A stretch of DNA of 64,000 nucleotides from Bacteroidota bacterium. GTDB lineage: Bacteria; Bacteroidota; Bacteroidia; Chitinophagales; LD1. The translations under genes and the position numbers were made by a program. The stretch is taken from contig CANJZE010000004.1 of NCBI GenBank assembly GCA_947479455.1, positions 124,001 through 188,000 of the forward strand, given 5' to 3'. The notes below the pieces were generated by a model that ran no database searches, had not been told where the DNA came from, and saw nothing but the letters and a program-made list of their open reading frames with translations. Positions within the stretch are counted from its first letter, which is position 1. Every line of letters begins with the position of its first letter. Positions 48,094 to 59,560 of the stretch are shown one piece after another.

Positions 48094-51000
48094 TTATCTT
48101 ACAAGGGTTACATTACCGTGACCTGAAAAAATATCGTGATTTACACATTCTATTTCATACGTATAAACGAACACCGCAGGATTTAGTTTCCCGCCTTGCA
48201 TATCGTTACCATCCCATGCCCAACGTGGATTGTTTCCCTCCCCATCTGTAGTTTCAAAGATCAATTTTCCCCAACGGTCAAAGACTCGGAAGTAGTTTAT
48301 TTTGGCTATAGGAATACCGCGAATCATAAATACATCGTTCAATCCGTCACCGTTTGGTGTAAAGGTATTAGGAACATAAATTGTTCTGCCATCACAAGTG
48401 CCCAACACTGTGATAGTTGCAAAGCCATCGGTAGTACAAGTCACACCATTGGTGCTGTAATAAATAGTCGCTTGGTAAGTGGTGGTTGCATAAGGTGTTG
48501 CAATAGGGTTTGGACATGTACGGCAATCCAACGTTTCATCAGGAACCCAAACAATGCTATCTACACGACCCGGATAACTGGCGCTAAGATTCGAACTGGA
48601 GCCCAAAACAATCTGGTCAGGAATTGCTTCTACCATTAGTGGTATTTGTTGTATGGTTTGAATAGTAAACGTATCATTCGCTGAATTGCAAACACCATTC
48701 ACCGCACTTACTATATAACTTATATCTCCTAATGGGCTTACCGTAACAGTTGCAGAATGAGCATCACTCAACCATAAATTGGGCGACCAGGTTATGTTAT
48801 CAAACACTCCGCTAACTGTATAATCAAGTGAAACGCCAAGGCATATAGTGGTATCGCCAGGGTATATCACCAAACGCGATAAGGAATCGGTCAATACAGT
48901 TTGAATCAAAGTATCTGAACAACCATTCAAATCAATAACCACTAATTGCACATCGTGTGATCCCGGAGGGAAATGAAACGATATATTACAGTTGCTGTCA
49001 ATAGTAGGAGGTGTTGCTCCTAACCAAAGTGTCCATTCGCAAATTGCAATAGGTGCATCTCCCTGAATTGAGGTACTCGACAAAGGCATATCTTCATTTT
49101 CGCAAGAAGTAGTCCATGCAAAATTTGCATTAGGCAATTCATTTACTGTAACTACAATTACTGCGGTATCATGACAACCGTTTTGGTCGGTAATAGCAAC
49201 TGAAACATCAAAAGTAGGGAAGAATGGTGGAGTGAAAATGTGACAAGGAGGATTTGTTCCGTTAAATCCACCCTGATTAAATCCAAAGTTCCAGTCAGTA
49301 TTTACAATAGGTGAGGCACTCGTAGATAAATTGGTTAAGCATATCTGTTGGTTAGCACAAATTACTGTATCGTTCAAAGAAAAGGCAGCTTGTGGGCTTG
49401 GCAATACGGTTATCGGTCGCGTGGTATCATCAAAACATCCGTGTTCATTAATGACGGTTTCTATGATATTGTAGTTACCTGGGTTGGTATAGTAATGACA
49501 AATGTAATTTCCCATTAAAGTATCTCCATCGCCATAATCAAAAAGCCAGGTGGTTAACTGACCATTAAAACTACTCGAATTATCAGTTACACAAACGCTG
49601 TCGTCAGTACAGAAAGTGGTACCAACACTGAATGAGGCATCAACATACGAAATGGATAATTGCACGGTATCTGTATCGGCACACAAATATTGGTCAGTAA
49701 CAATTAAAACAATCAATGTATCGTTGTACAACGTAATTGAAGGATTACAAATATTCGGATTCGATACCAATCCCGTTGGCTCCCAATGGCAGGCTAAACC
49801 ACCTGAACCATTTAGTGTAGTAGTGTATCCTCTGCAAATTTCCTGGTCGCCACCTGCATTGGCAATTGGATTATCAATTACACGAATCACCGTTGAAGAA
49901 TCACAATCCGGACATCCTATGCTATCATACACGCACATAGTCACTCGGTAATAACCACCGGTTGTGTAGGTGTGACAAACATCAGGTGTGTTAGTAGTAT
50001 CAATATGCCCGTCACCAAAATCCCATACCCAATAATCGGCACCGGTTAAAGGATAAATCCAGCTCGTATCATGAAAACAAATTGGGCTTTCGGCACACAC
50101 GAGTGAATCATCCGCGTAGTACCCTGCAATAGGGAACTCAGGCACTACAACCACGTTGCTTACTATCGAATCGAAACAACCTAAATTACTCCAGATATAA
50201 AGCTTTGCGTTATAGCCTCCCGGTCCTGCATAGTAATGGCATGGATTTGCAGCGGTATCAAAATTCAATGGTCCCGAAGCGGGATCACCAAAGTCCCAAA
50301 GACGTTGAACGGTGAATGAATGATTGGACGGTAGGGTGTAGGTTGTATTGTCAAAGAAACAAACAATGCCATCTACACAAACACCGTAATTATCAAATCT
50401 GAATTTTACAACAGGAGAGTCAATCGACAAAAATGGTTTGTCTAAAACTACCTGGCACCCACTGGCATCTTGAAACAACACTTGAGGTTGGCAGGTATCG
50501 GTCACACAGAAGGTGTAGTCAAAAGCAAAATTAGTTGGATTGGTTTCCGTACCTATAGGAACGATTGGGCATTCGGTAAATACATCTGCCTGACAGCCGG
50601 TGAAAAGTTTAACGCAGTTCGCATTATAAGTAGTGACCGTATAGTGAATAGAATCTTTGCACGCACACATACCCAACGGTGCTACGTTCAAAGATCCGTA
50701 TGGACCTAAAACTACAATTACTTCGATTGTATCCATATCTGAACAACCATCGGCAGTGGTAACAGTTAAGGTAACAATGTATCGGCCGGGTTTGTTATAA
50801 ATGTGGTTAGCCGGGTTAGTATACGCATATGATGAATCTCCAAAATCCCAAATTCTTGTTCCCAGTGGATCGGGATCTGTATAAAGAGAAGTATCGTAGA
50901 ATGCAATCAATTGTGGAGGATTAGGACAAATAATAGTATCCTGACTTGCATACCCTGCAGCAATAGGGTTATGCACATGAATGGTTCTGTAATCATCAAC

Positions 51001-53949
51001 CGTACATAATCCAAAAGCTGAAATATTCAAATGCAAATCGTAATCACCTGCACCAGCCGGGAAATTAAAACATGGAGTATACAAGGTAGATTGTGGTGGA
51101 GTTGCACCTCCGGAAATTTGCCAATTGAATTGTAGATTACTTTGCGAACTGTTGGTTGCGCACGCATTTGAACCTTCGCATAGCAAGGAATCAATATCGT
51201 AACTAATTAAAATTGGAGTAGAGGCAATAATATCATGACTTACCGTTCGGGTACAACCTGCACTATTGGTTACAGCCAAGGTTACGGTATAGGTGTTTTG
51301 TAAAGCGTAAACATGGCAAGGGTTCTGAACCGTGTCAGTAGTTCCATCACCAAAATCCCAAAGCCAGGAAGTGATTGAACAATATTGATCAACCGTAGAG
51401 TCAATAAAACAAATTGGCAAAGGTAAACAGACTGAATACGGTCCAAATTCAGGAATTAAATCACAAACCGTAGCCGTGCCATATGCCGTATCAATGCATC
51501 CCGATGATGATTTATTTCTCATCGCTATGGTATATACTCCAGGAGAAGTATAAGCATGAGTGATCACATCACCACCCGATGTTCCGGCTCCAAAAAAATT
51601 GAACCCTAAACCAGTGATACTAGAAGTATCCCAATCCCAACGCGTAAAACCAATAGTTTTTGTGCTCGAAACATTATAATACTTCACGCTAAATGGTGTA
51701 CAACCCGTGGTATCAGAAGGGGAAAAGGCTACACTATCGCAGGCGGTTGATATAACCGTTGTTTTTTGATGGGCACATCCCGTAATGCTACTCTGGGTTT
51801 CTAACTTAATACTACAAGTATCGCAAGGAGGAAGCACAACATGCGGGTCTTTCAATGTTGATGTTGTTCCATTGCAAAAAGTCCATAAATAACTAGTTGC
51901 ACCAACCGATTTGTTATAAAGAAAAACAGTATCGCCCATACCGCAAAACGTAGAATCCAAAAATTTGGTGATAGGTGCAAAAATGTTGATCGTAAATTTA
52001 AAGGAGTCTGAGGCACAACTATCGTTATAGGCTATGCAAGTAGAATGTATTGCACCTGTATCTTGATAAGTATGGAAAAAATTGGAGGTGTAGAAGTCTG
52101 CTGCTACTCCATCTCCAAAATCGCAATAAATTCTATCAAAAGAATTAGTACAGTTCAACACAAAGTTTACCGAATCATCTTCAAAACACATAGAAGTAGG
52201 AGTAGCTGTCATATTGCAATTGGGTTTGGCGCTTACACAAATGGTGTCCACCAAAATTACCGTATCTGTACATCCCGAAACCGTGGTTACAGCCAATTGA
52301 ACCGTGTAACAACCCGTATCAACAAAACATCGCTTAATAGTATCCTTACAAGCACCGGGTATAACCGGTACACTTACCGGCCCGGTAAAACTCCAGCAGG
52401 CCGTAGCTATGGTTGTGTGTAACAAAGTTACATTGGTTAAATCATCAAAAGTTGCACATAGGGGAGTACAGCCTTTTGATTTATTAAATCCGATAGTGCC
52501 AATTACAGGTCTGGTTCTAACCAATTGTCGCGAAACAGTTGAGGAACATCCGTTAGGATCAACAGCTGTAAGCGTAGCTGTAAAAATATTATTAGTGGAA
52601 TAGGTTGCATTGAAATTAGCCCCGCTACCAGTTTGGGCTGGGGAACCGCCACTTTGCCAAGTATAGGCACAGCTTGGGCAACCGGAAGCAGTGTAATTAA
52701 CCAAGTACGGCAATTTACAACTGAAGGTATCTGAAGTATTAAAGGTTACATTAGGTTTGGCACTTATAACAATCACTTGTTGTGCCGGTAGATTAGTGGT
52801 ACAACCTGCCCCGAAAGTACCACTTGCCGTAGCAAAATAAGTACCCGGTGTACTAAGGTTCCAACTTGCTGAACCGCCTGTTTGTGGTGAAGGTAGAACA
52901 AGCGGTCCTCCATTACCGGGTCCATTCAAATTCCAAGTAAGATTTGCAGGAGCACCCGATGTATTCGTTAAAATAAGTGTGAAAGGATCACCGGGAGCGT
53001 AGCACCCCGAATCGGCATTAGAAGTGTAACTAATCACAGGGAAATTTCGAACACAAATATAGCCTAACCGAGTGCTTGAATCGCTGCAACCCGTGCAATG
53101 TGTAACCACTAGTTTAATGTCGTAGCAATAAGGATCAACAGGAAAAGTGTACTGAAAAATATTAGAAAGCGAATCGGAATAAGTCAACGAATCATTCACG
53201 TACCAATGATAAGTAGTGCAGGTTAATCCAGTAGGGTCTGCAGTAAACGTTACAGGCAAAGGGGTGCTGGTGCAGTTAACTGTTGTAATATTGGCTGTAA
53301 AAAAAACATGTGGCTTAGGAATTATGCAAATCTTATTTAGGTAAGATGTATCGGAGTAACAACCAAAAGTATTTCGCACAACCGTAGTTACTTTGTAACA
53401 ACCCGGTGGGCAGTTGTAGGAATGAGGAATGGGATTTGCACTACAACCCGTGCTGATGTACGGAATTCCACAACCCCAATCAATGACAACTGAATCTATG
53501 TTGCCGCTACCTGCTGAAGAGTTACAAACTGCCTGAACGTTCAACGGTGCGCATCCCAATGTAGGAGAGAAACTAAAATCGAGATATGGAAGTGCCGCGG
53601 CATAAATTCCACACTTTTGAATAGTGCAAACATTACCTGAGGCACTGGTACTGCGCAAGGTAAGACAGTAGGTGCCTGAGTCGCCAATCAAATAATCGAA
53701 TTGAGGAGTGTTAGTTCCAGGCGTGCTGGCAAATACAATTCCGCTCGGTCCGGTGAGTGTCCAAATTCGTTGCACCACCGTTGCACTATCAGATTCTTGA
53801 GCTTTAGCTGCCAAATAAAGATCTACACAACCTACAGTATTTTGAGTAAACACAAAATTACATTGTGCCGTAACGTAAGTTGAATAAAAGGAGATCAGTG
53901 CTAATACAAAACAACGCATGAAAGCGGCCGGGGTCAATCTCATATTCAT
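48094..53949 (-). CDS. Giant PKD-repeat adhesin with T9SS type B sorting domain
   Basis: A 1951-residue secreted surface protein. Signal peptide lies within the first 28 residues; alternative starts are at 53949, 53943 and 53919, and the promoter position favours 53919, giving MRCFVLALISFYSTYVTAQ. The body is a long series of Cys-containing PKD/Ig-like domains, recognised by WDFGDG-type motifs (for example WLWDFGDGTTD, RIWDFGDSSYAY, WVWDFGDGHID, WLFDYGDGDTL) with HxY partners; I count about nine. The C-terminus (IYVPNTFTPNGDGLNDVFMI, YFRVFDRWGKLIFET, WAWDGNDMQGGKLNPAVFVY) is the gliding-motility/CHU_C type B sorting domain. SprB-like in design; likely adhesion or gliding, partner protein immediately downstream. 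Confidence 0.9.
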   Translation of the reverse strand: MNMRLTPAAFMRCFVLALISFYSTYVTAQCNFVFTQNTVGCVDLYLAAKAQESDSATVVQRIWTLTGPSGIVFASTPGTNTPQFDYLIGDSGTYCLTLRSTSASGNVCTIQKCGIYAAALPYLDFSFSPTLGCAPLNVQAVCNSSAGSGNIDSVVIDWGCGIPYISTGCSANPIPHSYNCPPGCYKVTTVVRNTFGCYSDTSYLNKICIIPKPHVFFTANITTVNCTSTPLPVTFTADPTGLTCTTYHWYVNDSLTYSDSLSNIFQYTFPVDPYCYDIKLVVTHCTGCSDSSTRLGYICVRNFPVISYTSNADSGCYAPGDPFTLILTNTSGAPANLTWNLNGPGNGGPLVLPSPQTGGSASWNLSTPGTYFATASGTFGAGCTTNLPAQQVIVISAKPNVTFNTSDTFSCKLPYLVNYTASGCPSCAYTWQSGGSPAQTGSGANFNATYSTNNIFTATLTAVDPNGCSSTVSRQLVRTRPVIGTIGFNKSKGCTPLCATFDDLTNVTLLHTTIATACWSFTGPVSVPVIPGACKDTIKRCFVDTGCYTVQLAVTTVSGCTDTVILVDTICVSAKPNCNMTATPTSMCFEDDSVNFVLNCTNSFDRIYCDFGDGVAADFYTSNFFHTYQDTGAIHSTCIAYNDSCASDSFKFTINIFAPITKFLDSTFCGMGDTVFLYNKSVGATSYLWTFCNGTTSTLKDPHVVLPPCDTCSIKLETQSSITGCAHQKTTVISTACDSVAFSPSDTTGCTPFSVKYYNVSSTKTIGFTRWDWDTSSITGLGFNFFGAGTSGGDVITHAYTSPGVYTIAMRNKSSSGCIDTAYGTATVCDLIPEFGPYSVCLPLPICFIDSTVDQYCSITSWLWDFGDGTTDTVQNPCHVYALQNTYTVTLAVTNSAGCTRTVSHDIIASTPILISYDIDSLLCEGSNACATNSSQSNLQFNWQISGGATPPQSTLYTPCFNFPAGAGDYDLHLNISAFGLCTVDDYRTIHVHNPIAAGYASQDTIICPNPPQLIAFYDTSLYTDPDPLGTRIWDFGDSSYAYTNPANHIYNKPGRYIVTLTVTTADGCSDMDTIEVIVVLGPYGSLNVAPLGMCACKDSIHYTVTTYNANCVKLFTGCQADVFTECPIVPIGTETNPTNFAFDYTFCVTDTCQPQVLFQDASGCQVVLDKPFLSIDSPVVKFRFDNYGVCVDGIVCFFDNTTYTLPSNHSFTVQRLWDFGDPASGPLNFDTAANPCHYYAGPGGYNAKLYIWSNLGCFDSIVSNVVVVPEFPIAGYYADDSLVCAESPICFHDTSWIYPLTGADYWVWDFGDGHIDTTNTPDVCHTYTTGGYYRVTMCVYDSIGCPDCDSSTVIRVIDNPIANAGGDQEICRGYTTTLNGSGGLACHWEPTGLVSNPNICNPSITLYNDTLIVLIVTDQYLCADTDTVQLSISYVDASFSVGTTFCTDDSVCVTDNSSSFNGQLTTWLFDYGDGDTLMGNYICHYYTNPGNYNIIETVINEHGCFDDTTRPITVLPSPQAAFSLNDTVICANQQICLTNLSTSASPIVNTDWNFGFNQGGFNGTNPPCHIFTPPFFPTFDVSVAITDQNGCHDTAVIVVTVNELPNANFAWTTSCENEDMPLSSTSIQGDAPIAICEWTLWLGATPPTIDSNCNISFHFPPGSHDVQLVVIDLNGCSDTLIQTVLTDSLSRLVIYPGDTTICLGVSLDYTVSGVFDNITWSPNLWLSDAHSATVTVSPLGDISYIVSAVNGVCNSANDTFTIQTIQQIPLMVEAIPDQIVLGSSSNLSASYPGRVDSIVWVPDETLDCRTCPNPIATPYATTTYQATIYYSTNGVTCTTDGFATITVLGTCDGRTIYVPNTFTPNGDGLNDVFMIRGIPIAKINYFRVFDRWGKLIFETTDGEGNNPRWAWDGNDMQGGKLNPAVFVYTYEIECVNHDIFSGHGNVTLVR

Positions 53950-54145: not shown

Positions 54146-54916
54146 ATGAAATATGGTATAAGTCATTTGAGTATCATTCCGCTCCGAATCGAAGCATCGC
54201 ATAAAAGCGAAATGGTTTCGCAACTATTATTTGGTGAAACATTTTCGGTTATTAAAGAACAGAAAGACTGGTTGCAAATTGAATGTAGTTTCGATAACTA
54301 CCAAGGGTGGATGGATGCCGCACAATTTCATGAACTAACCGAAAAGGATTACCAAACCATTACTGAAAACAATTGTGGTGTGGCCATGGACTTATCAGGC
54401 ACGGCTGCCTCCGGTTCCGATTCGGTGCCAATAGTAGCGGGAAGTTCTCTTCCTTTCTTTGATGGTATGAATCTTAAAATAGGGAAAGAGAAATTTATTT
54501 ACAACGGTCAATCGGTAACAGCCGATGGAAAAACAAACGCTTTGCTAGAACGAGTGGCCATGCGTTATCTCAACGCTCCTTACCTTTGGGGTGGCAGATC
54601 GCCCTTTGGAATTGATTGCTCGGGGTTTACGCAATTGGTATTTAAGTTTATGAATTTGAAATTGAAGCGAGATGCTTATTTACAAGCTGAGCAAGGTGTA
54701 ATTGTCAATTTTATTGAAGAAGCGGTGCCAGGCGATTTGGCTTTCTTTAATAATGAAGAAGGAAAAATAATTCATGTAGGAATTATCCTGAAAGACAATA
54801 AAATCATTCATGCTTCCGGCAAAGTGCGATTAGATAAACTCGACCACTTCGGCATTCATAATACTTCTACCAAAAAGTATACACACCAATTGAAGATTAT
54901 AAAGAGATTGCTGTAA
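54146..54916 (+). CDS. C40 (NlpC/P60) cell-wall peptidase with SH3-like domains
   Basis: A 256-residue peptidase. N-terminal SH3b-like segment (MKYGISHLSIIPLRIEASHKSEM, starting at 54146; a start 21 bp upstream is possible), a second SH3-like part around residues 50-110, then an NlpC/P60 domain: YLWGGRSPFGIDCSGFTQLV with catalytic Cys, IIHVGIIL with catalytic His, and a polar third residue near HASGKVRLD. The family cleaves peptidoglycan peptides (gamma-D-Glu-diamino acid bonds). There is no visible signal peptide, so it may act on imported murein peptides in the cytoplasm or be exported by another route. Confidence 0.88.
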   Translation: MKYGISHLSIIPLRIEASHKSEMVSQLLFGETFSVIKEQKDWLQIECSFDNYQGWMDAAQFHELTEKDYQTITENNCGVAMDLSGTAASGSDSVPIVAGSSLPFFDGMNLKIGKEKFIYNGQSVTADGKTNALLERVAMRYLNAPYLWGGRSPFGIDCSGFTQLVFKFMNLKLKRDAYLQAEQGVIVNFIEEAVPGDLAFFNNEEGKIIHVGIILKDNKIIHASGKVRLDKLDHFGIHNTSTKKYTHQLKIIKRLL

Positions 54917-54922
54917 CCAAAC

Positions 54923-55125
54923 AAAAAAAACCCACACAGATGCTGACGTTAAGACGCATCTCAAGTCAGGATTTGGGCTTAGCAACATTGCTGTAATTCG
55001 CTGTTAACTTGTTTTTTGGACGAAGATCACCATTGCTGATGATTGCGACCCGCCATTAACGTTGCAACTTAAGCCCGGTTCTGTAATAATTATCCATCTA
55101 ACGCATCGGTCTGTGTGGGCGTATC
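54923..55125 (-). ncRNA. ssrS: Structured RNA, candidate 6S RNA (6S-Flavo type)
   Basis: This 329-bp gap has no credible gene but folds well as a minus-strand RNA. Closing stem: 55112-55119 with 54931-54938 (8 bp), 55103-55107 with 54939-54943 (5 bp), 55097-55102 with 54948-54954 (6 bp, one bulge). A large, weakly paired central region follows (55077-55096 opposite 54955-54974). The apical arm has 55070-55076 with 54975-54981 (7 bp) and 55058-55065 with 54982-54989 (8 bp, one G-U), capped by a small hairpin (55026-55043). The transcript would end in GUGUGGG and eight U. About 190-200 nt, long closing stem, open centre and apical arm are the 6S RNA plan, which mimics an open promoter to bind RNA polymerase. 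Identity is inferred from structure only. Confidence 0.6.
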
Positions 55126-55245
55126 TTAAGAATAAAGAATTATAGAATTCAAAATTCGGAAGTATCAAAGAACTAATTGTGAATGTAAAAACCGAATCGG
55201 AATTTGGAAGCAGCAATACGAATTTTATTTCTCCACATCCGCTGA

Positions 55246-56328
55246 CTATTCTTTCCAGTCTGCTATAAAAATATTGGTTTCGCGCGTGCCGCCATTGTTT
55301 CGGTTGCTACACCAAACTAATTTTTTACCATCGTTTGAAAACATAGCAAAAGCGTCAAACACTTTGTCGTTTGTCAATTGTTCCAACCTAGTTCCATCGG
55401 TATTGATGTAGTAAAGATTAAATGGAATTGCTTTGGTTTTATGATTCGAACTGAAAATTACTTTTTTGCCATCGTGCGAAAAATTTGGCGCCCAGTTAGC
55501 ACCGCCCAAATTCGTTAACTGTCTGCGGTTTGTGCCATCGCTGTTAGCCATAAACAATTCCATTTTCATGGGCGAAACCAAATGCTTTTTCAAATTCTCT
55601 TTGTATTCCACTCGCTCTGAGTCTGTATCAAAATGCGATGCGCGCCAAATAATTTGCGTGCCATCAGGAGAAAAGTTGGCACCGCCATCGTAACCCAATT
55701 CATTGGTAATTTGTTTCACTTGGCTTCCATCGAGGTTCATGGTGTAAAGTTCCAGGTCTCCACTTCTATCGCTGGTAAAAAGAATTTTATCGCCCTTAGG
55801 TGACACCACCGCTTCAGCGTCATAAAATTTATTGCTGGTGAGTTGCTTTACAATTTTTCCGTTCAAATCGGCAATAAAAATTTCGTAATCGGCATAAATA
55901 GGCCAAAGATATTTCCCATGCACATGAGCAGGCACAGCGGGACATGATTCTGAATGCAAATGAGTTGAAGCGTAAAGAATCTGTGTATCGCCCGGCAAGA
56001 AAAACGAACAAGTAGTTCGTCCATTTCCAGTACTAATTAAATGTTTGGAAGTATCAGAAAGATTCAAACAAAAGATTTGATCGCACGGAACGCCATTTGG
56101 TTTATCGGTATGTTGAAACGTCAACTTGGTATCATCGAAACTGAAATAAGCTTCGGCATTTTCACCACCAAAACTTAATTGCTTTACATTTTTCAAATGC
56201 TTTTCATTGGCAAAATGAATAGCGGAAGTGTCATTGGTAGAAATTGTTGCTTCCATTTTTTTGCCTGAACTATTGCATGCGTTCAACAAAAAAACAATTG
56301 TTATTACAGGAAAAAATGCTTTTCTCAT
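55246..56328 (-). CDS. PD40 beta-propeller lipoprotein (TolB-like)
   Basis: A 360-residue lipoprotein; start at 56328 gives MRKAFFPVITIVFLLNAC, with the Cys as lipid site. The mature protein consists of WD40-like/PD40 blades as in TolB: YFSFDDTKLTFQHT, VVSPKGDKILFTSDRSGDLELY, NFSPDGTQIIWRAS, NFSHDGKKVIFSSNHKTK, MFSNDGKKLVWCSNRN. Each ends with a tract like NLDGSQVKQIT. Some relatives are secreted peptidase-associated propellers; no catalytic domain is present here. Located downstream of the candidate 6S RNA's promoter side, on the same strand. Confidence 0.82.
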   Translation of the reverse strand: MRKAFFPVITIVFLLNACNSSGKKMEATISTNDTSAIHFANEKHLKNVKQLSFGGENAEAYFSFDDTKLTFQHTDKPNGVPCDQIFCLNLSDTSKHLISTGNGRTTCSFFLPGDTQILYASTHLHSESCPAVPAHVHGKYLWPIYADYEIFIADLNGKIVKQLTSNKFYDAEAVVSPKGDKILFTSDRSGDLELYTMNLDGSQVKQITNELGYDGGANFSPDGTQIIWRASHFDTDSERVEYKENLKKHLVSPMKMELFMANSDGTNRRQLTNLGGANWAPNFSHDGKKVIFSSNHKTKAIPFNLYYINTDGTRLEQLTNDKVFDAFAMFSNDGKKLVWCSNRNNGGTRETNIFIADWKE

Positions 56329-56957: not shown

Positions 56958-57647
56958 GTGAAACAAAAAATTGTGGTGCTTACTGGCGCAGGTATTAGTG
57001 CCGAAAGCGGTATTAAAACCTTTCGCGATTCTGGTGGCTTGTGGGAAAATCATCGGGTAGAAGATGTGGCTTCGCCTGAAGGATGGCACCATGACCAACA
57101 GTTAGTTTTGAACTTTTATAACGAACGCAGAAAACAATTGCTTGAATGCAAACCCAACCGTGCACACTTTGCACTGGCAGAACTCGAAAACAAATTTGAC
57201 GTAACCATCATCACTCAAAACGTGGATGATTTGCACGAACGGGGCGGTTCCACAAATATCATTCACTTACACGGTGAACTTTTAAAAGCGCGAAGCAGTG
57301 TAGATGAAAATTTAATTTACGATTGCTCGCAAGATATTTTGGAAGGAGATAAATGTGAGAAAGGCTCGCAACTACGCCCTCACATTGTTTGGTTTGGAGA
57401 AGCAGTGCCTTTGATGGAAACTGCTGTACCAATTGTTCAATGTGCTGAGATTTTTATTGTGGTGGGAACTTCGCTTGTTGTTTATCCTGCAGCCGGTTTA
57501 GTCAATTACACGCGCTACGAAATTCCTAAATGGCTTGTTGACCCAAATGATATGCCGCTGCCACGGGTGCCCCATCTTAAATTCATCAATGAAAAAGCTA
57601 CGATTGGAGTTGATTACTTAGTGAATCTATTGTTGAAAGAATCTTAA
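56958..57647 (+). CDS. Sir2-family NAD-dependent protein deacylase
   Basis: A 229-residue sirtuin with GTG start. NAD-binding GAGISAESGIKTFRDSGGLW (about residues 9-28), TQNVDDLHERGGS (about 92-104), the catalytic His in IHLHGE (about 108-113), and VVGTSLVVYPAAGLV (about 171-185) are present. The zinc Cys pairs are missing or reduced: only CSQDILEGDKCEKG is seen, so it belongs with small zinc-poor bacterial sirtuins. The family removes acetyl, succinyl or related groups from lysines using NAD. Its TAA interlocks (TTAA) with the stop of the PorE-like gene. Confidence 0.9.
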   Translation: MKQKIVVLTGAGISAESGIKTFRDSGGLWENHRVEDVASPEGWHHDQQLVLNFYNERRKQLLECKPNRAHFALAELENKFDVTIITQNVDDLHERGGSTNIIHLHGELLKARSSVDENLIYDCSQDILEGDKCEKGSQLRPHIVWFGEAVPLMETAVPIVQCAEIFIVVGTSLVVYPAAGLVNYTRYEIPKWLVDPNDMPLPRVPHLKFINEKATIGVDYLVNLLLKES

Positions 57648-59560
57648 ATCGCCAGCACAACAAACTCTGTCCTTCTGTTTTTCGATTTGCCCTCGGCAGT
57701 GTTATTGGCTGCTACGGGTTTTGAAGCCGCGTAACCTTTGTAGCTTAATCTTTCGGCCGTAACACCATTACTTACTAAATATTCGTAAACACTCTTCGCC
57801 CTGTTTTCTGATAGCGCTTTATTTTTTTCTTCGCTGCCACTGTTGTCGGTATGTCCACCAATTTCAATTTTCATAGAAGGATTTTTTTCGAGCATCTTCA
57901 TTACAATTGAAAGTTCCGAAGCCGATTCTTTTTTCAATTCAAATTTTTCAGAGTCGAAAAAAATATTGTTAAGCACCACCTTCTCTCCTACTTTTATTTT
58001 GTTGAGCGCTATATCAATTTCGAAAGGTGTTCCTTCTTTCACATCCTTCAACGAAATATTTTTTGAAAAGAAAAGATAACCATCGCGCATTACTTCCACG
58101 GCATAATTTCTACCGGCTGGTAGCGTGGAAAGAAAATTCCCATTGACTCTATCAGCCGAAAAAGTGCTGAATAGTTTTCCTGTTTCCAAATCATACACCT
58201 GCACATTCGCACTAATGGGTTCGCGGCTTTCATTATCAAAAACATTTCCTTTTACATAGGTGGTATAGCCTGGGCGCAAATGCGCGGGCATATCAAACGT
58301 GTAAATATCCATTTGACCTCTGCTGTCTTTTTGTTCGCCTGCAAAAAACGCATGTTCGCCATCCGCAGTTACATAAATTCCCAGTTCATCACCCGCAGTA
58401 TTAATAGGATAACCGAGGTTTTCGGGCTTGCCCCATTTACCGTTTGTATTTTTGTGGCTTACATAAATATCGTAGTTGCCTAATCCAGGCAAACCGTTCG
58501 AAGAAAAATAAAGTGTGTTGCCATCGGGGTGAAGGTATGGTCGCATTTCATCGAAAGGAGTGTTAATGCTATCACCTAAATTTTCGGGTTGATTCCAAGT
58601 TCCATCAGCATTTAAGTAACTCACCCAAATATCGCAGCCTCCTTTTCCGGTAGCTCGAATAGCCGAATAAAATAGTTGCTTGCCATCGGCACTTATACTT
58701 GGCTGCGTTTCATAACCCGGAGTATTGATGGGCGAACCCATATTGTTTGGTCGCTCCCAAACATCACCAACTTTTCTACTGATATAAATATCTGCTCTAC
58801 CTAAACCATCAGGTCTATCGGACGAAGTGAAGAACAAATACTTTCCACTTGGCGAAATGTTTTGTGCGCCTTCAATAAAGCGTTCGGTATTTATCATTTC
58901 GCCCACGCTTATTGCAGGAGCAAAACCGGCACTGGTATGCAGCGACATAAAAATATCTTCATCTTGAAAAGCCCCTAGACCAAAGTGGCGCGTGAAATAC
59001 AAATACTTACCATCGGCAGTTAAAGAAGGCATGCTTTCATCGGCTGAAGTATTTACGTTTCCGCCTAAGTTCATGGGTTTAAAATCTACCGGATGTGTTA
59101 CCGCTTGGGTTGAAAAATCGCAATCGGTCAAATATTTTTCTGCTTGAATTCTTTCAGTAGCTACTAATTTTTGTTGCTGCAAAAAAGCAGTGAGTAAAGT
59201 TTTTGCCTGCGAATAATTTGCCAAGTTCATGTTGCAGCGCGCCAATTGAAAATCTGCATCGCTTAAATAATTGGCTTGCAACAATTTTACTTTTTCGTAA
59301 GCCTTTTTGGCTTCCTCAAAATTTTTGAGATACTCTAAATTGATTTGCCCGAGCAGCATCCAAGCATCTATAAAATTGTCTTTCTCTTTTACGGCATCGT
59401 GCAATAATGAATCGGCCAAAAACAATTTGCCAAAAGCAAAACTATTGTCGGCTTTATCAAATAATTCTTTGGCTTTTCCTTTTGCGGTTTCTTTAGTTAG
59501 AACCTGTGAAAAAGCAAAAAGAGGGAAAAGCAACACAACAATAACGAGAGACTTATTCAT
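57644..59560 (-). CDS. PorE-like TPR / PD40 propeller / CRD / OmpA protein
   Basis: A 638-residue exported envelope protein: signal peptide MNKSLVIVVLLFPLFAFSQ; TPR units at about 25-150 (FIDAWMLLGQINLEYLKNFEEA); a PD40-type propeller at about 175-415 (SLTADGKYLYFTRHFG, ISPSGKYLFFTSSDRPDG, ISADGKQLFYSAIR, LHPDGNTLYFSSNG); a carboxypeptidase-regulatory-like domain at about 425-505; and an OmpA peptidoglycan-binding domain at about 520-638 (IFFDSEKFELKKES, IEIGGHTDNSGSEEKNKALS, SENRAKSVYEYL). This is the architecture of the T9SS protein PorE. OmpA-type Asp and Arg for diaminopimelate contact are present. Assignment to T9SS is by architecture, not by synteny. Confidence 0.85.
   Translation of the reverse strand: MNKSLVIVVLLFPLFAFSQVLTKETAKGKAKELFDKADNSFAFGKLFLADSLLHDAVKEKDNFIDAWMLLGQINLEYLKNFEEAKKAYEKVKLLQANYLSDADFQLARCNMNLANYSQAKTLLTAFLQQQKLVATERIQAEKYLTDCDFSTQAVTHPVDFKPMNLGGNVNTSADESMPSLTADGKYLYFTRHFGLGAFQDEDIFMSLHTSAGFAPAISVGEMINTERFIEGAQNISPSGKYLFFTSSDRPDGLGRADIYISRKVGDVWERPNNMGSPINTPGYETQPSISADGKQLFYSAIRATGKGGCDIWVSYLNADGTWNQPENLGDSINTPFDEMRPYLHPDGNTLYFSSNGLPGLGNYDIYVSHKNTNGKWGKPENLGYPINTAGDELGIYVTADGEHAFFAGEQKDSRGQMDIYTFDMPAHLRPGYTTYVKGNVFDNESREPISANVQVYDLETGKLFSTFSADRVNGNFLSTLPAGRNYAVEVMRDGYLFFSKNISLKDVKEGTPFEIDIALNKIKVGEKVVLNNIFFDSEKFELKKESASELSIVMKMLEKNPSMKIEIGGHTDNSGSEEKNKALSENRAKSVYEYLVSNGVTAERLSYKGYAASKPVAANNTAEGKSKNRRTEFVVLAI

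Follow-up and report, generated by a model that had tools for sequence, protein, structure and literature searches.

A probable 6S-type RNA in a Bacteroidota genome, related to Bacteroidales-1 and 6S-Flavo and preceded by a boxA-like leader element

The window, the whole stretch of 64,000 nucleotides of Bacteroidota DNA that was analysed, carries an RNA gene of ~190 nt on its minus strand (55119-54923), with a body at 54931-55119 of about 189 nt. Two protein genes converge on this locus, an NlpC/P60 gene that ends at 54916 on the plus strand and a PD40 beta-propeller gene that ends at 55246 on the minus strand. Pfam places a Sir2-family protein (56958-57647, plus strand) and a PD40-OmpA protein (57644-59560, minus strand) nearby, and beyond the NlpC/P60 gene the minus strand at 48094-53949 encodes a cysteine-rich protein of 1951 aa that looks secreted and repeats WDFGDG-type motifs (PKD-like by eye). 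Small ORFs cross the RNA locus. Its copies in 25 genomes of the same family, however, are 192-207 nt long including the tail and differ in length by single bases; the locus is therefore non-coding, and a protein-coding reading is ruled out. The features of the locus, all on the minus strand, are the following.

55179-55187, minus strand: -7 type promoter box TACATTCAC, TAnnTTTG-like
55163-55174, minus strand: boxA-like element AGTTCTTTGATA
55120-55162, minus strand: leader from the boxA-like element to the RNA, able to form a hairpin (z -1.9)
54931-55119, minus strand: body of the RNA, probably 6S-type, CCCACACAG ... CTGTGTGGG, with homologues in the family, covariation, an RF01693 match at 54924-55112 and matches to covariance models R1 and R2 at 54923-55119
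55110-55119, minus strand: outer closing stem, 5' arm CCCACACAGA, 10 bp with 54931-54940 in the RNAalifold consensus
55095-55104, minus strand: inner closing stem, 5' arm, an interrupted 10-bp run with 54946-54956 (consensus and covariation)
55077-55094, minus strand: open centre, 5' strand, AU-rich and variable
54975-55076, minus strand: apical arm, with a stem, conserved AAUGGCGGG and AUUACA strands and two hairpins, one variable (55043-55026) and one conserved (55025-55008), from the alignment and RNAalifold
54957-54974, minus strand: open centre, 3' strand, conserved CCAAAUCCUGAC, in which CAAAUCuUG is shared with the Bacteroidales-1 consensus
54946-54956, minus strand: inner closing stem, 3' arm, pairing with 55095-55104 (consensus and covariation)
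54931-54940, minus strand: outer closing stem, 3' arm UCUGUGUGGG (RNAalifold consensus and covariation)
54923-54930, minus strand: U8 run, intrinsic terminator, with a T-rich run after the closing stem in 25 of 25 family sequences

The true 5' end of the RNA may lie a few bases upstream of 55119, at TTAAGATACG. Loci of the 6S-Flavo type have AAGATACTG immediately 5' of the RNA, and its similarity to TTAAGATACG suggests a slightly earlier start of the RNA, or of a processing site, here as well.

A preliminary description of this locus had drawn a structured minus-strand RNA with an interrupted closing stem of 19 bp, an open central region, a two-part apical arm and a U8 tail directly after the closing stem, and this architecture was borne out in each part. 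The outer stem of 10 bp and the interrupted 10-bp inner run together give about 19 pairs, 55094-55077 and 54974-54957 are unpaired in the consensus bar one weak pair, the apical arm divides into two hairpins, and eight Ts occupy 54930-54923. The minus strand folds with a minimum free energy of -64.3 kcal/mol and a z score of -3.97, which none of 200 dinucleotide shuffles equalled, versus a z score of -1.88 on the plus strand, where 6 of 200 shuffles were equally good. An RNA on the plus strand is ruled out by that score and by Rfam matches there at chance level (E 4.1 or worse).

A DNA similarity search of 60 genomes, the organism's own and 30 of the same family among them, found a homologue in 25 of the 30 family genomes. 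The search found no copy in the other five; four of these are at most 80% complete, but the fifth is 96% complete. A 26th match, in genome G049, is a 20-base piece. Covariation in related genomes, which the preliminary description had named as a check on its fold, proved abundant. RNAalifold, applied to the 25 family members aligned with MAFFT, recovers the same architecture, from closing stem through open centre to branched arm, and for 23 of its 49 pairs at least one sequence carries changes in both partners. Once the one weak pair in the open centre (RNAalifold columns 29-174) is dropped, the remaining 48-pair structure is paired in 97.7% of cells across the 25 sequences, compared with 86.5% in shuffled alignments and 31-46% when the partner is slid, and both sides change in 140 cells, compared with 39.7 after shuffling. 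Within the family the outer closing stem hardly varies (8 of its 10 pairs are constant), and it is the more distant relatives that support it: in an alignment of 69 superfamily sequences, two-sided changes occur at every one of the 10 pairs and 98.1% of cells are paired, and in a set of 95 sequences, whose loci are partly those of the 69, the value is 96.0%. Overall, 89.2% of cells are paired in the 95-sequence alignment, with weak single pairs of the apical arm at 47% and 59%; both larger alignments were fitted to a covariance model and are biased in its favour. In a further MAFFT alignment, to which four distant homologues had been added, the apical arm was misaligned, and no counts were taken from it.

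The whole window contains no Rfam match at gathering level. The preliminary description had looked to Rfam to place the RNA, and the answer was mixed, since there is a significant match below the threshold. In a permissive search of 54600-55400, the single meaningful match is to RF01693, Bacteroidales-1 (model positions 1-179, 36.2 bits against a cut-off of 60, E 2.8e-4), and the next best match has an E value of 4.1. Over the whole genome, the RNA locus is the top place for RF01693 (E 3.2e-4), followed by one at 1.43. RF01685, 6S-Flavo (gathering score 85), has no match in the window or in the organism's own genome at E 1, and RF00013, 6S/SsrS (gathering score 46.4), likewise has none in its own genome at E 1; classical 6S and 6S-Flavo are accordingly rejected as the direct family of this RNA. 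Among 30 relatives, RF00013 gave two matches near E 0.8 and none over its cut-off. In the 60 genomes of the relatives search, its own included, the RF01693 cut-off was reached by none. RF01693 nevertheless independently picks out, in the 25 family genomes positive by DNA similarity, the loci found by that search (E 4.7e-6 to 0.09), and it adds places outside the family in four genomes (G036, G049, G054 and G056), making 29 of 60 at E 0.1. In a control genome, that of Bacteroides ihuae, RF01693 scores above its cut-off, and neither RF01685 nor RF00013 matches. By the Rfam cut-offs, then, the RNA is a member of neither RF01693 nor RF01685.

The relation between these families was examined across the class. 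A covariance model, R1, was built from the 25 family sequences only, and scans were made over 296 genomes of the same class, presumably Bacteroidia, that are at least 90% complete. R1 gave 16 matches including its own locus, RF01685 gave 21, of which 4 are over the cut-off, and RF01693 gave 29, of which 10 are over the cut-off. R1 and RF01693 overlap at seven places, the locus described here among them, and four of these are over the RF01693 cut-off; the other six above-cut-off RF01693 places are absent from the 16 R1 matches. R1 and RF01685 overlap at 3 of the 16 R1 places, all of them sub-threshold, and at none of the four above-threshold 6S-Flavo places. RF01693 and RF01685 overlap with each other at four places, one of which is over the 6S-Flavo cut-off. 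On fetched loci only, R1 detects six of eight 6S-Flavo loci.

A second model, R2, was built from 69 superfamily rows and found 125 places in 124 of the 296 genomes, one per genome save for a single genome with two. R2 recovers 20 of the 21 RF01685 places and 28 of the 29 RF01693 places, and 81 of its 125 places were reached by neither Rfam model. Its training included 41 of the 125 places, whose recovery is thus by construction; this does not apply to the other 84. Above 14 bits, R2 found nothing in 134.5 kb of unrelated loci. It had no match in 172 of the 296 genomes, which implies either that the sequence has in many cases diverged beyond the reach of the model or that the RNA is not universal. 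Bacteroidales-1 and 6S-Flavo, split by Rfam, are parts of one superfamily. In the genome with two R2 loci, the boxA-like element is present at one and absent at the other.

Within this superfamily, the RNA resembles Bacteroidales-1 in aligning over its full length, in size and layout, and in the AAUGGCGGG, AUUACA and CAAAUCyUG strands. It differs in its score (36 bits rather than the required 60) and in its closing stem, which the Rfam model as printed with the match lacks; both this RNA and the above-threshold members matched by R1 clearly have a closing stem that covaries. With 6S-Flavo it shares overlapping model matches and an equally placed closing stem (CCTACATTAG/CTAATGTAGG in 6S-Flavo), although its own genome has no RF01685 match. 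Classical 6S RNA (SsrS) is alike in size and in having a closing stem, an open centre and an apical arm; its Rfam model has no match in the genome, and the likeness is one of layout. The 6S reading of the preliminary description stands at the level of the superfamily, and the nearest Rfam family is Bacteroidales-1, at a sub-threshold score, rather than 6S-Flavo, the Bacteroidota form that it mentioned.

The locus is thus a conserved RNA gene that stands alone and is related to both Rfam families; covariation supports its architecture, in which an open centre lies between the closing stem and the apical arm. It has the layout of the 6S class, namely a closing stem, an open central region and an apical arm within about 180-200 nt. 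Very probably, it is the organism's 6S-type RNA and forms a divergent branch of a Bacteroidota 6S superfamily that includes Bacteroidales-1 and 6S-Flavo. The strongest competitor is a structured RNA of Bacteroidota-wide distribution with a different job, for example sequestering a protein or acting at the ribosome, to which the 6S label would have been given from shape alone. The AAUGGCGGG...AUUACA and CCAAAUCCUG strands appear more conserved than a pure promoter mimic would require, which would suit such a role. Against it stand the single R2 place in 123 of 124 positive genomes, the 6S size and layout together with the overlap with 6S-Flavo, and the finding that RF00013 and RF01685 match nowhere else in the genome, and we consider this competitor improbable. 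Still less probable is that the fold is a cis element, either the terminator region or 3' UTR of the upstream PD40 gene or a double terminator between convergent genes. The position between convergent genes and the terminator at the end of the RNA are as that reading would have them, but the neighbours vary while the RNA stays (of 24 other family loci, just 6 have PD40 upstream and 2 have NlpC/P60), and an RNA of ~190 nt with a promoter-like box and a leader is retained across family loci. A chance fold in AT-rich spacer DNA, for which the missing gathering-level match might speak, is refuted by the homologues, their compensatory changes and the z score, and is hardly credible.

Upstream of the probable 6S-type RNA lies a conserved leader. 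The -7 box consensus for Bacteroidota is given as TAnnTTTG in the account of PMC7366714, and in most family loci a TAnnTTYRC box is followed shortly by AGTTCTTTGA or a close variant, as TACATTCAC is followed by AGTTCTTTGATA here. A -33 promoter box, sought by eye, is not clearly kept. Every family locus with sufficient sequence, 24 in all, has GTTCTT[TC] at most 110 nt upstream (0.7 expected; one locus at a contig end was left out), as do 16 of the 44 loci from elsewhere in the superfamily (1.3 expected); the loci are related, so that P values for these counts are only a guide. It also accompanies 66 of the 125 R2 places (about 3.7 expected from the background rate) and occurs in 20 of 34 families, in 17 of them in the majority of members; at crudely called ORF starts, it is found in 5 of 433 windows. 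A likeness to 6S-Flavo is seen in family f73, home of the four above-threshold 6S-Flavo genomes, where 5 of 10 places have GTTCTT[TC]. The boxA-like leader also sets the RNA apart from Bacteroidales-1: none of the ten above-cut-off RF01693 places has the element (five in family f53, three in f76 and one each in f85 and f87, presumably Bacteroidales). It is likewise absent from families f36 (0 of 8) and f72 (0 of 7), and family f30 mostly has CGTTCTTTC before the 6S-type RNA.

The stretch between the element and the RNA can also form a hairpin across the family. The family leaders that reach 25 nt, 20 in number, all fold with z scores below -1 (mean -3.2) despite their differing sequences; four leaders shorter than 25 nt were left out of this comparison. 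In four loci of one genus (L027-L030), the hairpin is followed by TTTTT in a terminator-like arrangement, which makes an attenuator possible there. The genome contains just one further exact copy of AGTTCTTTGATA (G000:C18:95086), and its 3-kb locus has no Rfam or tRNA match; nor was any such match found in the 11 loci that were scanned among 47 places with one-mismatch variants of the 12-mer.

The same element occurs in ribosomal RNA operons. In the organism's own genome there is no 16S match. In all seven loci of the order that include a 16S start (rRNA fragments lacking a 16S start were outside the comparison), GTTCTTTGA precedes the 16S rRNA by 85-158 nt; five of these loci are from the same genus. 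In 4 of the 7, GTTCTTTGA is found again 274-513 nt past the 16S end, presumably in the 16S-23S spacer. Four rRNA loci have GTTCTTTGA(C/A)AT both in the rRNA leader and past the 16S end, and by eye GTTCTTT also follows their upstream TATATTTG promoter boxes. In E. coli, boxA is TGCTCTTTAACA and sits in the rRNA leader and in the 16S-23S spacer. The element is termed boxA-like because it is placed as in E. coli, and GTTCTTTGA, besides matching the rRNA leaders of the family, resembles E. coli boxA. Unlike the rRNA boxA, the element described here precedes a 6S-type RNA, with a hairpin following; acting as a boxA, it would bind NusB-S10 and change elongation. A search of titles found none on boxA in connection with 6S RNA or on boxA in Bacteroidota.

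The element is also present at tmRNA genes of the order, where GTTCTTTG lies upstream of 13 of 21 genes; the count omits three of 24 above-cut-off places, which ARAGORN did not find. In 12 of the 13 positive genes, the element is 12 nt from a TAnnTTTG-type box, and in the remaining one it is at 34 nt. Such regular spacing raises the question of whether AGTTCTTTGA is, instead of an RNA boxA, a motif of the start site or of a transcription factor. This is a serious possibility, though on balance a doubtful one. Its main attraction is that the distance to the -7 box is often fixed, not only in the tmRNA genes but also in many family 6S genes, where it is 13-14 nt (14 in the window). The element is, however, found at varying distances from the RNA (15 to 106 nt), a -7-like box lies farther away elsewhere (about 20 nt at many places of family f30), and the element recurs in rRNA leaders and, at four of seven loci, beyond the end of 16S, where a start site would be unexpected. 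As a conserved element, the ribosomal-style leader is well supported; its function as a boxA, which the resemblance to rRNA leaders would suggest, is not proven. The broader proposal, that the 6S gene is transcribed behind an rRNA-style boxA and hairpin leader across much of Bacteroidota outside, presumably, the Bacteroidales, and that the Nus antitermination/chaperone machinery, which builds ribosomal RNA, would also make the 6S-type RNA and tie it to growth, we rate as an even call.

Classical 6S RNA (SsrS) has a closing stem, an open centre and an apical arm, and in both E. coli and B. subtilis the template for the short product RNA (pRNA) is in the 5' strand of the open centre. By analogy, 55077-55094 on the minus strand is a candidate pRNA template, and the RNA would regulate the housekeeping polymerase. 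The folded molecule would mimic an open promoter, with the closing stem standing for downstream DNA, the open centre for melted DNA and the apical arm for upstream DNA. It would bind the polymerase carrying the primary sigma factor and retain the enzyme when nucleotides are scarce; release would follow once the 5' strand of the open centre has been copied into a pRNA and this pRNA invades the closing stem. The RNA itself would be transcribed from a -7-box promoter as a precursor, with a short leader containing the boxA-like element and the hairpin.

Published work on related bacteria is consistent with such a role. Rfam's description of RF01693 reads "6S-Bacteroidales RNA suggested". Weinberg et al. 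(2010, PMC2864571) give 6S-Flavo as one instance of an RNA that fulfils the function of a validated class. In Bacteroides thetaiotaomicron, dRNA-seq detected a 6S RNA and gave evidence for its pRNAs (Ryan et al. 2020, PMC7366714), in an account that names no Rfam family; that the Bacteroides 6S RNA corresponds to Bacteroidales-1 follows from the Rfam description and from the matches in Bacteroides ihuae. In Flavobacterium psychrophilum, a 6S RNA is listed among the known RNAs detected (PMC9723704). The sections on 6S RNA structure in PMC7657543 mention neither Bacteroidales-1 nor 6S-Flavo.

An uncultured Bacteroidota lineage thereby gains its presumed 6S RNA. At the level of the superfamily, R2 reaches 124 of 296 genomes of the class, as against the 4 places that pass the cut-off for 6S-Flavo and the 10 that pass it for Bacteroidales-1. 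If the boxA-like leader works as a boxA, synthesis of an RNA that restrains the polymerase would be wired to the machinery for ribosomal RNA elongation.
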